From a virus, in IMG/VR virus record IMGVR_UViG_3300030333_001184, positions 1-24,268 of that record: a DNA stretch of 24,268 nt, one strand, 5' to 3'. Position numbers and translations under genes: made by a program. Of the stretch, positions 18,054 to 23,116 are shown piece after piece. How positions within the stretch are numbered: position 1 is the stretch's first letter; each line of letters begins with the position of its first letter. The notes below the pieces were generated by a model. That model was not told the origin of the DNA. It worked only from the letters and a program-made list of their open reading frames with translations, and ran no database searches.

Positions 18054-18353
18054 ATGGATGGAAGAAAAAATAATGGGAACAAAGGACATTCTACAAAAGC
18101 TAAAGGAAGCGATAAGAGAAAGAATGAATACAGAAAAGCATTAGAACTAGCATCTACTCCTGAAGATGTCGTAGAGGTCATTAAAAAGCTAAAAGAGAAG
18201 GCTATAAATAAAAGTGATGTAAATGCAATTAAACTGTATTTAGAATATTATTTAGGTAAGCCTAAAGACAGTATAGAAATAGAAGGTAATCTTAACACAG
18301 GATATTCTTTTAATGAAGTGATAGCATTAATTAGGGGTAGTGATAAATCATAA
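18054..18353 (+). CDS. terS: Small terminase subunit
   Basis: This 99-residue protein starts MDGRKNNGNKGHSTKAKG, basic and Gly-rich, and continues with two to three helices (KRKNEYRKALELASTPEDVVEVIKK, then DVNAIKLYLEYYLGKPKDSIEIEG). The KNNGxKGHST start and the LEYYLGKPKDSIE helix resemble small terminase subunits or terS-like proteins of Bacteroidota phages that recognise DNA for packaging. It overlaps the terL start by 14 bases. The identification rests mainly on position plus this appearance. Confidence 0.72.
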   Translation: MDGRKNNGNKGHSTKAKGSDKRKNEYRKALELASTPEDVVEVIKKLKEKAINKSDVNAIKLYLEYYLGKPKDSIEIEGNLNTGYSFNEVIALIRGSDKS

Positions 18354-19539
18354 GTATTTAACATTAAATAATCCAACTAGATATTTTATAGTTACAGGGG
18401 GTAGAGGTTCAGGTAAATCGTATTCTATAAATATGCTTTTATGTTTGTTAATGACATATGAAGCTGGGCATACAATTCTATTTACAAGATACACATTACG
18501 TTCTGCATCAATATCTATTATTCCTGAATTTGTAGATAAAATACAGCACCTAAAAATGTTTAATGATTTTATTATAACAAAAGATGAAATCATACATAGA
18601 GAAACAAGAAGTAAGATTTTATTTAGAGGTATTAAAACATCATCAGGGAATCAGGTAGCAAATCTTAAATCATTACAAGGTGTTACAACTTGGGTACTTG
18701 ATGAAGCTGAAGAATTAGTAGATGAGAATATCTTTGATACTATAGATTTATCTGTACGTCAAAAAGACATTCAGAATAGAGTTATAATGATTCTAAATCC
18801 AGCAACAAAAGAACATTTTATTTACAGAAGGTTTTTTGAAGAAGCAGGAGTACAAGCTGGAATGAATCACAGTAAAGGAGATGTAACATATATACATACA
18901 ACATACCTAGACAATAAAGAGAATTTAAGTAAAAGCTATATTGCTCAAATAGAAAGGATCAAAGAAAACAATCCAAAGAAATACGACCATATAATAAAAG
19001 GCTCTTGGATAAATAGAGCAGAAGGTGTTGTGTTTGATAATTGGTCTTATGGTAAATTTAATCCTGATAATTTACAAACATCTTGTGGAATGGATTTTGG
19101 CTTTTCTGTTGATCCTGATACGTTAATAGAAGTTGCTATTGATAAAACTAAAAACAAGATATATCTAAAAGAACACATATATCAGACAGGAATTAAAACA
19201 CATATACTAGGTGCAATGATAAAAGATAGAATAGGAGATAAATTAATTATTGCAGATTCAGCAGAGCCTAGATTGATAGAAGATTTAAAACATCAAAGAG
19301 TAAACATTCAAGCAGTAAAGAAAGGAACAATAGAATCAGGCATTGTAAGAATGCAAGATTTTGAAATTATAATTGATCCTGATAGCACAAACATAGGTAA
19401 AGAGTTTAATAATTATTCTTATGCAGACAAAGGTAGTAAACTATATATTGATAATTGGAATCACGCAATAGATGCTGCTAGGTATAACATAATATACCAT
19501 TTAGACAATCCTAATAGAGGTAAATATTTCATACAATAA
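18340..19539 (+). CDS. terL: Large terminase subunit, packaging ATPase and nuclease
   Basis: This 399-residue protein begins with GTG, since no ATG lies upstream of the Walker A motif in this frame. Walker A is GGRGSGKS (20-27), Walker B with the catalytic Glu pair is WVLDEAEE (118-125), and the coupling segment ILNPATKEHFIYRRFF follows. The C-terminal nuclease has CGMDFGFSVDP (Asp252), IIADSAEPR (Asp306) and HAIDAARY (Asp378), the expected metal ligands of the RNase-H-like nuclease. It belongs to the Terminase_3/PBSX-like group. It drives DNA into the prohead and cuts the concatemer. It lies about 12 kb from the portal gene, which is unusual. Confidence 0.95.
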   Translation: MINHKYLTLNNPTRYFIVTGGRGSGKSYSINMLLCLLMTYEAGHTILFTRYTLRSASISIIPEFVDKIQHLKMFNDFIITKDEIIHRETRSKILFRGIKTSSGNQVANLKSLQGVTTWVLDEAEELVDENIFDTIDLSVRQKDIQNRVIMILNPATKEHFIYRRFFEEAGVQAGMNHSKGDVTYIHTTYLDNKENLSKSYIAQIERIKENNPKKYDHIIKGSWINRAEGVVFDNWSYGKFNPDNLQTSCGMDFGFSVDPDTLIEVAIDKTKNKIYLKEHIYQTGIKTHILGAMIKDRIGDKLIIADSAEPRLIEDLKHQRVNIQAVKKGTIESGIVRMQDFEIIIDPDSTNIGKEFNNYSYADKGSKLYIDNWNHAIDAARYNIIYHLDNPNRGKYFIQ

Positions 19540-19579
19540 AAAAAGCACCTACTACTCTCCCAAATTATAGATGCTTTTT
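19540..19579 (+). terminator. Probable terminator after terL
   Basis: AAAAAGCACCT (19540-19550) pairs with AGATGCTTTTT (19569-19579) with one mismatch, around an 18-base loop. The T-run is part of the stem (five T, then C), so it is weaker than the other terminators. It may also work on the opposite strand. Confidence 0.55.
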
Positions 19580-19654: not shown

Positions 19655-20224
19655 ATGAAGGCATCAATAACAATTCCTGATAATTTGAACGAAATATCTG
19701 TTGGACAATACCAGCGATATGTTGCAGTTACAAAAGGAATAGAAGGAGAGTTTTTAAACCAAAGAACAATAGAGGTTTTTTGTAATGTACCTTTTGAAAG
19801 AGTTATTTTAATGAAGCATAATGACGTTAAAGAAATAGCAGAACATTTAGTTGCATTAATAAACGAAGAAAATGTAGATTTTAAACATAGGTTTAATATA
19901 AAAGACCAAGAGTTTGGTTTTATTCCTGATTTAGATGAAATGACATCAGGAGAGTTTGCAGATTTAACAGCATATCTTGGTAAGCCTGAAGAAATGCACA
20001 AGGCAATGGCTGTTTTATTTAGACCGATAGTAAAGAAGGAAGGAGATAAATATGATATATGTGAATACAATGGTACAAAAGAGTTTAGCGATTTAATGAA
20101 GTATATGCCTTTAGGTATTGCTTTTGGTAGCTTGGTTTTTTTTTACAATTTAGCGAAAGACTTAACGAAAGGTACGCAACACTCTATCAGGGAGGAACTA
20201 ATGAAGGAGGTCTTGGAAAAGTAG
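19655..20224 (+). CDS. Tail assembly chaperone-like protein, short (0-frame) form
   Basis: The frame gives a 189-residue protein with a beta-rich N-terminus (ASITIPDNLNEISVGQYQRYVAV) and a helical middle (FERVILMKHNDVKEIAEHLVALI; DLDEMTSGEFADLTAYLG). I recall this pattern in Bacteroidota phages upstream of tail genes. Near the end, at residue 162, the message contains a run of nine T; ribosomes that stay in frame add 26 more residues ending KEVLEK, while those that slip by -1 add 86 other residues (see 20131-20403). The gene lies 115 bases after terL and just before tail genes. Tail-assembly-chaperone identity follows from this arrangement, as in lambda G/GT; the sequence family itself I cannot name. 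Confidence 0.72.
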   Translation: MKASITIPDNLNEISVGQYQRYVAVTKGIEGEFLNQRTIEVFCNVPFERVILMKHNDVKEIAEHLVALINEENVDFKHRFNIKDQEFGFIPDLDEMTSGEFADLTAYLGKPEEMHKAMAVLFRPIVKKEGDKYDICEYNGTKEFSDLMKYMPLGIAFGSLVFFYNLAKDLTKGTQHSIREELMKEVLEK

Positions 20225-20403
20225 AAAACTTTGGTCGTAAGTGGGGGTTTTATCAGAACTTTTACACTTTGGCTCAAGGCGATATTAGAAGATTTGATGA
20301 AATAAGTAAAATGAATATACATACTTGTTTAACATATTTAAGTTTTGAAAAAGAGAAGAACGAAGTAGAAGCAGAATTAATAAAAAAGAGTTATAAGAAA
20401 TGA
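20131..20403 (+). CDS. -1 frame extension of the tail chaperone (frameshift product)
   Basis: In the -1 frame a TAG at 20128-20130 is followed by an uninterrupted frame to TGA at 20401-20403. No ATG occurs until 20311, so the part from 20143 on is reached most simply by a -1 slip from the 19655 frame. The product from the slip site reads LQFSERLNERYATLYQGG, then VENFGRKWGFYQNFYTLAQG, then DIRRFDEIS and CLTYLSFEKEKNEVEAELIKK. This is normal, compact protein with Trp, Tyr and Phe in ordered places, and the KWGFYQ ... LAQGDIRRFDE type is one I associate with Bacteroidota phages. The fusion would be 163 + 86 = 249 residues. Its TGA overlaps the ATG of the next gene (ATGA at 20400-20403). A homopolymer sequencing error (nine for ten T) is the alternative. 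Confidence 0.8.
   Translation, partial: LGFFLQFSERLNERYATLYQGGTNEGGLGKVENFGRKWGFYQNFYTLAQGDIRRFDEISKMNIHTCLTYLSFEKEKNEVEAELIKKSYKK
20137..20143 (+). promoter_or_regulatory. T TTT TTT slippery heptamer for -1 frameshifting
   Basis: The heptamer lies in a run of nine T (20136-20144) with the 0-frame codons TTT (20138-20140) and TTT (20141-20143). A -1 slip lets both tRNAs re-pair fully on Phe codons, and the next codon becomes TTA. It is placed 7 bases after the last -1-frame stop, inside the 94-base window where the two frames overlap. I saw no obvious downstream pseudoknot. Confidence 0.72.
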
Positions 20404-22271
20404 TAACATATTACAATTTACTAGATACAATAAAAACACAATTACTAGAAGACCCACAATGTAATTCTGTTACTGAAGGCTCTATATGGGAAATAGATTT
20501 AGCTAAACAAACTATAATGCCTTATGCACACATTCAAGTTAATAGTGCATCAATTACAGAACGTACAAATATATTTAATGTTACTGTTTTCTGTATGGAT
20601 ATTGTAGACAAGTCTAAAGAAGAAACAACAGATAAATTCAAAGGTAACGATAACGAACAGGATGTATTAAATACACAATTTGCAGTTGCTACAAGATTGT
20701 TAGAATTAATGCGTAGAGGAGATTTAAGAAACGATAATTTTGCTTTATTAGAAGGTTCATCTCCAAGTCTTGAATCGTTTACAGAGAGATTTGAGAATTT
20801 TTATGCTGGATGGGCAGCTACATTTGATGTAGAAGTTCCTAACGAAATGACTATATGTGGAACAGTTGCACCATCAGCTTGTGAAGATGCTTCATATAGT
20901 ATTACAGATTCAGCAGGAACAGTATTATATAGTGGAACGATTGTATCAGGTGGCTCATTAACACAAGCAATATCAAATAGTGCAGTAAGCAATTCTGACG
21001 ATAGTTTTACAGCAAGTATTTTAGCACAAGGAACATTGGCTCTTGGAGATATAGAAATAACAGTTCGTAATAGTGCAGGAGCAACAGTTGGAACAAACAC
21101 ATTACCAGCAGCAGTTAATGGTACAGCAACAGCACCTGATGGAACAGTAAGAAATACAGATGGTAGTTATTCTCTTGCAGTAGTTTCAGGAACAACAGAT
21201 GGTGTTATACCTAATAGCACAATGAATTTTAATGGTGCAAGTGAAGGAACATTTGTTAGTGTAAAAACAACAGCAGTTACTTTGAAGGATGAAACAGGAT
21301 CAAACCTTACTCCGACATCAAAAAGTTTAGCAAGTAATACATTAGCATTAGTAGTTCAAAATCCTGTAACAGTATTTACAGATATGTACACAGGAAAAGC
21401 AGTTTCACACGGAGGAACAGTTGAATCATTATCTTGTATAGATACATCTGATGTATTTAGTGCTGCACCATTAGGAAAAATACAGCCATCAGCTTACGGA
21501 ACAGGAAAACTAATTGCAATGAAGCCATTAGCAGGAGGTTTTGATTTAGATGTTGTAAGAAGCACAACAGCATACAGAACAAATAGCAGTAATTTATTAG
21601 AATCAGTTGCAGCGAATGTTCCAAGACTAGATTATGAAGGTGTTACTTGTCCATCTGTTTTAGTAGAAGCACAATCAACAAATCTATTACTTTACTCACA
21701 GGAATTTGATAATTCTTGGTGGAAAAAAAATAGTTCAACAGTAACAGCTAATGATGCAGTTGCTCCTGATGGAACAACAACAGCAGAAAAGTTAGCTTTA
21801 GGTGGTGTAAATTTAGCTAGGTTATTTAGAAACAGTACAGTAACAACATCTAACACTCATACATTTAGTATATGGATGAAAGGAACAGCAGGAGAGCAAG
21901 TTACATTAGAAGCTGGAAGTGGAGCAAATTCTGTTACATTGACTGCTAATTGGGTTAGATATAGTGTTGTAAATACAGGAGGTGAAACATCAACAAATGT
22001 TAAAGTTATAAATAGGTCATCAAATGGAGATGATGCAAACGATATTTATATTTGGGGCGCACAATTAGAAGAAACATCTACGGCTAGTTCATATATTGTA
22101 ACAACGTCTGCAAGTGCTACAAGAAATGCAGATGTATTATCAGTAACAGGCTTAACAGGATCATCAACAGTAACAGAAACATTTGAAGATGATTCAACAA
22201 ACGTAATAAGTAATCCTAGTACATATACAATGAGTACAGGAAGAATTAAAAAAGTAACACGAACAGTATGA
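20400..22271 (+). CDS. Tail protein with a receptor-binding-type C-terminus
   Basis: This 623-residue protein seems to join three parts. Residues 1-145 (MITYYNLLDTIKTQLLEDPQ, PYAHIQVNSASITERTNIFNVTVFCMDIV, LLELMRRGDLRN) look like a tail-completion or terminator-type domain of Bacteroidota phages. Residues about 150-350 are low-complexity, Ser/Thr/Ala/Gly-rich beta repeats (APDGTVRNTDGSYSLAVVSG). Residues about 360-623 have the pattern of tail-fibre receptor-binding regions: AYRTNSSNLLESVAANVPRLDYEG, VLVEAQSTNLLLYSQEFDNSWW, APDGTTTAEKLALG, HTFSIWMKG and YIWGAQLEETSTASSYI, which resembles a carbohydrate-binding jelly roll. It begins in an ATGA overlap with the frameshift product and ends in another with the next gene. 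The order suggests a multi-role tail protein. Confidence 0.68.
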   Translation: MITYYNLLDTIKTQLLEDPQCNSVTEGSIWEIDLAKQTIMPYAHIQVNSASITERTNIFNVTVFCMDIVDKSKEETTDKFKGNDNEQDVLNTQFAVATRLLELMRRGDLRNDNFALLEGSSPSLESFTERFENFYAGWAATFDVEVPNEMTICGTVAPSACEDASYSITDSAGTVLYSGTIVSGGSLTQAISNSAVSNSDDSFTASILAQGTLALGDIEITVRNSAGATVGTNTLPAAVNGTATAPDGTVRNTDGSYSLAVVSGTTDGVIPNSTMNFNGASEGTFVSVKTTAVTLKDETGSNLTPTSKSLASNTLALVVQNPVTVFTDMYTGKAVSHGGTVESLSCIDTSDVFSAAPLGKIQPSAYGTGKLIAMKPLAGGFDLDVVRSTTAYRTNSSNLLESVAANVPRLDYEGVTCPSVLVEAQSTNLLLYSQEFDNSWWKKNSSTVTANDAVAPDGTTTAEKLALGGVNLARLFRNSTVTTSNTHTFSIWMKGTAGEQVTLEAGSGANSVTLTANWVRYSVVNTGGETSTNVKVINRSSNGDDANDIYIWGAQLEETSTASSYIVTTSASATRNADVLSVTGLTGSSTVTETFEDDSTNVISNPSTYTMSTGRIKKVTRTV

Positions 22272-22558: not shown

Positions 22559-23116
22559 ATGTTTAAACCTGAAGAAGTAGAAAAAGAATTATCAGCTTTT
22601 GGTAAGTATGTTGTAAAACAAGCAAAAACAAGATTATCAAAAAGCAAAAAAAAATCTAGTGGAAATTTATATAATTCTATTGGCTTTGATTTAAAGGTAA
22701 TGCGTAATTCTTTTAGTATGTCTTTTTTTATGCAAGATTATGGTGCTTTTGTAGATGAAGGAGTACGAGGTAATAAAAGTAGTAGTAAAGGTAATAGACA
22801 AACTCAATCTCGTTTTAAATTTGGTACAAATAGTAGTTTAATAGGAAAATCTAAAGGAGGGATGTCAGGCTTGATGGCTAAATGGGCAAAGAAAAAAGGT
22901 TTTCAATGGAGAGATAAAGAATCAGGAAGATTTATGTCGCACAAATCTATGGGATATTTAATAGCTAGAAGCATATATAACAAAGGATTAAAACCTACAT
23001 TATTTTTTACAAAACCATTTGAGGATGCTTTTTTAAGATTGCCTGAAGATATAATAGAAAAATTTGGTTTAGATGTAGATGAATTTTTAGAACAAGTAAC
23101 ACAAGGAACAGATTAA
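22559..23116 (+). CDS. Tail completion / neck protein, HK97 gp10-like
   Basis: This 185-residue, basic protein has an N-terminal helix (VEKELSAFGKYVVKQAKTRLSK), then GNLYNSIGFDLKV and the motif MQDYGAFVDEGVRG. It ends with a conserved-looking FFTKPFEDAFLRLPEDIIEKFG. The DYGxFVDEG motif with a preceding LYNSI strand is typical of the HK97 gp10-like family and its Bacteroidota relatives, which join tail to head or complete the tail. The middle (GNKSSSKGNRQTQSR) is a charged loop. Between a tail-region gene and a structural gene its position fits. Confidence 0.68.
   Translation: MFKPEEVEKELSAFGKYVVKQAKTRLSKSKKKSSGNLYNSIGFDLKVMRNSFSMSFFMQDYGAFVDEGVRGNKSSSKGNRQTQSRFKFGTNSSLIGKSKGGMSGLMAKWAKKKGFQWRDKESGRFMSHKSMGYLIARSIYNKGLKPTLFFTKPFEDAFLRLPEDIIEKFGLDVDEFLEQVTQGTD

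Follow-up and report, generated by a model that had tools for sequence, protein, structure and literature searches.

A conserved change of frame at a run of nine T in a late phage gene that probably encodes a tail assembly chaperone-like pair

The viral sequence studied here, a window of 24,268 nucleotides, carries behind terL (18340 - 19539, Terminase_3) an open reading frame that ends inside a second open stretch in the -1 frame. Is this one recoded gene, two separate genes or one continuous gene broken by a sequence error, and what would its products do? The initial annotation proposed a programmed -1 frameshift giving a tail chaperone pair. A recheck of its coordinates found all of them correct: the 0-frame gene, the -1-frame TAG, the run of nine T with its heptamer, the 86-residue product, the first -1-frame ATG at 20311 and the overlap of the TGA with the ATG of the next gene (Table 1).

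Table 1. Coordinates of the two-frame locus in the window
Feature	Position	Strand	Details
0-frame gene	19655 - 20224	+	ATG at 19655, TAG at 20222 - 20224; 189 residues
-1-frame TAG	20128 - 20130	+	Upstream limit of the region in which a shift can occur
Run of nine T (T9), putative shift site	20136 - 20144	+	T TTT TTT in register at 20137 - 20143
-1-frame extension	20143 - 20403	+	86 residues plus TGA (20401 - 20403)
Dual-coding overlap	20144 - 20224	+	0-frame tail, 26 codons here, in a different frame from the extension
ATGA	20400 - 20403	+	TGA of the extension overlaps the ATG (20400) of the next open reading frame

The codons at the run are GTT TTT TTT TAC, and this is the only run of at least nine T in the window. 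Because the -1 frame is closed by its TAG and then stays open to the TGA, a shift has to take place between position 20131 and the end of the 0-frame gene. Translation would yield mostly the short protein, which consists of 163 residues encoded ahead of the shift and a 26-residue tail of its own. Part of the expression would slip by one base at T9 and give a fusion of 249 residues (163 + 86), the last 86 of which come from the -1 frame; the fusion reads VFF-LQF across the junction. The 0-frame product matches phrog_32199 in PHROGs with an E-value of 2.6e-13, and the relatives of the extension form phrog_38404.

Relatives were collected by scanning viral contigs with both halves of the gene, then with profiles of the halves and then with divergent members, which brought the set to several hundred. 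Scans of genome contigs found none. The C-terminal half lies in the -1 frame in 189 of the first 190 loci, the exception (L034) having a broken N-terminal half, and a further 143 loci have the -1 arrangement without exception. The motif nnT TTT TTT is present in all 171 distinct first-round copies, with the extension in the -1 register. Four loci (L062, L073, L083 and L108) that had been taken for junctions lacking the seven T were offset in register by one codon and all contain nnT TTT TTT. Altogether, T TTT TTT followed by a -1 extension was found in 275 of 275 distinct junctions, which are not mutually independent and fall into 96 clusters at 70% identity and 25 at 50%. The run is nine T long in 258 of them, ten in 16 and eight in one (L171). 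The initial annotation had suggested looking for homologs with the same slippery site, and had named absence of the extension from related phages as evidence against a shift; the site was found, and the extension is present throughout.

The invariance of the run is not due to codon bias, because TTT and GTT are far from fixed elsewhere in the same genes: TTT encodes 1100 of 1412 phenylalanines (78%) and GTT 615 of 1499 valines (41%). The other open reading frames of these loci, 734 kb in total, contain no T9, whereas 9.4 are expected from synonymous shuffles, and no run of ten or more T, against 4.4 expected. Inheritance of the run without selection is implausible, judging from the number of clusters and from the avoidance of the homopolymer elsewhere. 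In these alignments the recoding is conserved across the relatives far beyond chance. It is a previously unannotated event.

A run of nine T is prone to error, and the homolog in Flavobacterium phage 6H is apparently broken where phages 2A and FPSV-F7 have no such break. Both could suggest that the two frames are an artifact of sequencing or assembly and that the gene is truly continuous. The two frames are kept in all 275 distinct junctions, however, two isolate genomes among them, and this conservation refutes a homopolymer error, a reading to which we give practically no weight. The initial annotation had named reads with ten T in place of nine, giving one continuous gene, as evidence against a shift. 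In the relatives, the 16 copies with ten T still continue in the -1 frame, and their extra T lies inside another codon.

Translation of the -1 frame through the run is indicated by the codon that follows it. When the 0-frame residue just past the run is tyrosine and the next base is A, the codon is TAC in 75 of the distinct junctions and TAT in one; when the next base is C, it is TAT in 80 and TAC in 7. TAT is otherwise the commoner codon (774 against 534 TAC). TAT followed by A would create a TAA in the -1 frame, and its avoidance implies that the -1 frame is read at this point, so that the shift falls between the upstream -1 stop, which lies a median of 52 nt ahead of the run in the relatives, and the run itself. 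By this codon evidence the stop avoidance pins the shift to the T-run. Conservation in the C-terminal region is also highest in the -1 frame (mean 0.48; the other two frames reach 0.35 and 0.33). In the one relative with TAT-A (L012, 6455 - 6468) the second -1 codon is a stop, although the rest of the extension is conserved; this is either an error or a loss of the long form. A -1 stop straight after the run was counted against the main explanation.

The second half could instead be a separate gene with its own start, as in the public annotation of Nonlabens phage P12024L (_40/_41). This is very improbable, though slightly less so than an artifact. Most relatives have no start codon ahead of a conserved FGxKWG block, the first -1-frame ATG of the window falls inside the conserved part of the extension, and the annotated start of P12024L_41 omits conserved first residues. 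Furthermore, the first 28 post-shift codons of the -1 frame contain no ATG, GTG or TTG in 250 of the 275 junctions, which speaks against separate initiation. In both Nonlabens phages, P12024L (gp40/41) and P12024S (gp38/39), the gene pair with the T9 junction directly follows terL. Genes 40 and 41 of P12024L (locus L038, 12420 - 12700) have the appearance of one recoded gene annotated as two, and PHROGs likewise splits the gene into two unknown families.

The initial annotation had also proposed a search for homologs that are naturally fused in a single frame, and such proteins exist. A one-frame homolog of 270 - 301 residues (phrog_25418) is carried by the Duneviridae phages 2A and laban6-1 of Flavobacterium and Ingeline_1 of Cellulophaga, and it also occurs in Bacteroides phage BT-TP2. 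The alignment of the fusion profile with this protein spans 230 columns and crosses the junction (hhalign probability 97.4%, E-value 1.4e-11), with VFFLEF of the fusions set against LYFASF of the single-frame protein. Twenty column-shuffled profiles gave at most 0.5%, and one reversed profile gave 0.2%. The N-terminal half alone reaches 96.6%. The C-terminal half alone matches weakly (E-value 0.011), and its homology to the single-frame protein is probable. In phage 6H (L199, 10047 - 10927) the homolog is broken and in the sister phages 2A and FPSV-F7 it is intact. The 6H copy had been considered a distant frameshifted form with an odd frame pattern, an idea that was dropped because 2A and FPSV-F7 have one intact open reading frame; the interruption in 6H probably reflects a mutation or an error in the sequence. 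Taken together, the universal conservation of the site, the avoidance of -1 stops and the naturally fused homolog strongly support the programmed -1 shift making a fusion, as first proposed.

In most relatives the 0 frame runs on well past the shift. Its median open length there is 61 codons, compared to 14 in synonymous shuffles preserving the -1 protein. Its first 52 codons past the shift contain 0.17 stops against 2.38 expected, and the same stop-count test found no such depletion in the third frame. The short form thus appears to have its own selected tail overlapping the extension. In the lineage of the window this tail has been shortened to 26 codons.

The stop of the extension meets the start of the next gene as ATGA in 99 distinct relatives and as TAATG or TGATG in 63. 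As the extension ends on that start codon, only shifted translation would have direct access to it, and an effect of the shift on the level of the next gene is possible. In the window the next open reading frame (20400 - 22271) encodes 623 residues; its N-terminal ~150 residues match phrog_30964, which in P12024L is a separate protein of 138 residues, and tail-protein-like regions are fused behind them. Between terL and the frameshift gene lies a stable hairpin (19540 - 19579, AAAAAAGCA...TGCTTTTT, z -4.4), possibly a terminator or a processing site, and given this hairpin the gene may begin its own transcript. A run of nine A (22646 - 22654) is found inside a gene for 185 residues (22559 - 23116); such runs are scarcer in these phages than expected (10 against 33).

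The frame could be changed by the ribosome or by RNA polymerase. On the ribosome, both Phe-tRNAs on TTT TTT would re-pair in the -1 frame. Polymerase slippage would instead add one extra U at T9, so that an unshifted ribosome reads the extension. An X XXY YYZ heptamer in the 0-frame register is present and conserved; this does not speak for the ribosome, because any T9 contains a heptamer in every register. A heptamer needs just seven T, whereas at least nine are present in 274 of the 275 junctions, and the ninth T, which opens the following 0-frame codon, is invariant whether that codon stands for Y, W, S, C, L or F. A preference for hydrophobic residues (V, L, I or F before, L or F after) could also explain the flanking T's, however, and the single junction with eight T favors the ribosome slightly. 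An A/T run of at least nine that is rare elsewhere in genes is expected for transcriptional slippage, and the absence of T9 from the other reading frames agrees with this. T7 is depleted in each of the three registers (ratios 0.24 - 0.42) and not chiefly in the slip register, which resembles the frame-independent avoidance of runs reported for E. coli (PMC4066793). Nine is furthermore the length from which selection against A/T runs is evident in many bacterial genomes (PMC1088944). A search for pseudoknot-free 3' stimulatory RNA structures found none (mean z -0.02 over 61 relatives; z +1.26 in the window). In E. coli, U_UUU_UUU shifts less readily than A_AAA_AAG, but the tail-chaperone shifts described in the same work are ribosomal (PMC5009743). 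Mainly on this precedent, the ribosome is taken as the likelier agent, and polymerase slippage as a serious minority view. Slightly less credible still, and somewhat unlikely, is a combined reading in which a flavobacterial tail-assembly gene makes its long form by polymerase slippage at T9 and has two selected, overlapping C-terminal tails, ~61 codons in the 0 frame and ~84 in the -1 extension. If so, the short and long forms would both carry functional tails.

What remains is the function. Searches of Pfam, NCBIfam and the PDB matched no family. The two halves were modeled apart with AlphaFold2. The N-terminal domain (residues 1 - 163) is predicted to be compact and soluble (pLDDT 90.6), and the extension to be helical (pLDDT 74). 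The N-domain model matches none of the solved structures. It matches 36 viral models with E-values below 0.001, all of them unnamed or uncharacterized, and the fold search also returned the 6H copy (R9VW65, E-value 1e-4). A weak match in BFVD, ctCpR1 (E-value 0.017, probability 0.99), is a tail assembly chaperone by its label only. Known tail assembly chaperones are very diverse among themselves.

P12024L has a tape-measure protein (phrog_9483, E-value 5.6e-12), hence these are long-tailed phages. Its gene lies ~6.4 kb downstream of the gene pair, and neither in P12024L nor in G007, a near and long relative of the window, is the pair found directly upstream of the tape-measure gene. The gene order of G007 is similar, its tape measure having been named by inspection. 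In Ingeline_1 the homolog sits two genes upstream of the annotated tape measure.

The G/GT logic consists of a short and an extended recoded product among the late genes of a tape-measure phage (PMC5009743). By analogy with lambda gpG and gpGT, the two products would act in tail assembly, the shared N-terminal domain covering the tape-measure protein and the extension bringing in tail-tube subunits. We consider it fairly probable that a long-tailed phage of flavobacterial type encodes in this recoded late gene a gpG/gpGT-like chaperone pair made by a ribosomal shift. The tail chaperone pair of the initial annotation stands as the best-supported function, suggested by the gene's architecture, by synteny and by a single weak fold match. 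G/GT-like working is likely, whereas the searches placed the pair in no known chaperone family.

T7 gp10A/10B is a structural protein with a minor extended form. The recoding may likewise be real and the protein structural, or a neck or tail-completion protein. The gene is indeed grouped with the terminase and neck-like genes (an HK97-gp10/Neck1-like product, phrog_5, E-value 4e-4), at a distance from the tape measure and with no sequence kinship to chaperones. The position of the Ingeline_1 homolog, the compact soluble model, the weak fold match to a protein labeled as tail assembly chaperone and the lack of any other chaperone-like gene beside the tape measure of G007 argue against this, and we regard it as unlikely. 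A chaperone pair remains the preferred reading. Together with the corrected gene model it offers a lead to the function of a large marine and freshwater phage family that is listed as two unknown PHROGs, with a recoding site nearly invariant across hundreds of phages. To our knowledge, phages of the flavobacterial group have been little studied for recoding.

Frameshifts in tail assembly chaperone genes were reportedly treated by Xu, Hendrix and Duda in 2004. Like lambda G/GT, the present locus is a late gene of a long-tailed phage with a tape measure, and has a -1 slippery heptamer and a short form that shares its N-terminus with a fusion. Unlike G/GT, it follows terL and precedes the tape measure by ~6 kb, and no similarity to the lambda proteins was found in sequence or fold; the initial annotation had already remarked on the position after terL and on the lack of resemblance to gpG, and both were borne out. 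Two further departures from the classical system are the long dual coding past the shift and T9 itself, with either ribosome or polymerase as agent. In known chaperone sets the shift lies on average 26 - 36 nt from the 0-frame stop (PMC10885494), compared to 78 nt in the window and a median of 183 nt in the relatives. A homopolymer of nine is shared with the 9A/9T transcriptional slippage of Thermus dnaX, IS elements and Shigella spa13, and in spa13 the extension overlaps the start of the next gene, as it does here. A literature search found no description of 9A/9T transcriptional slippage for tail chaperones. The Duneviridae protein, encoded in the late tail block, is homologous across the junction but is read in one uninterrupted frame, and its long form needs no shift. 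The P12024L and P12024S (Inhavirus) pairs, annotated as two hypothetical genes and 25 - 29% identical, have the same T9 junction after terL.
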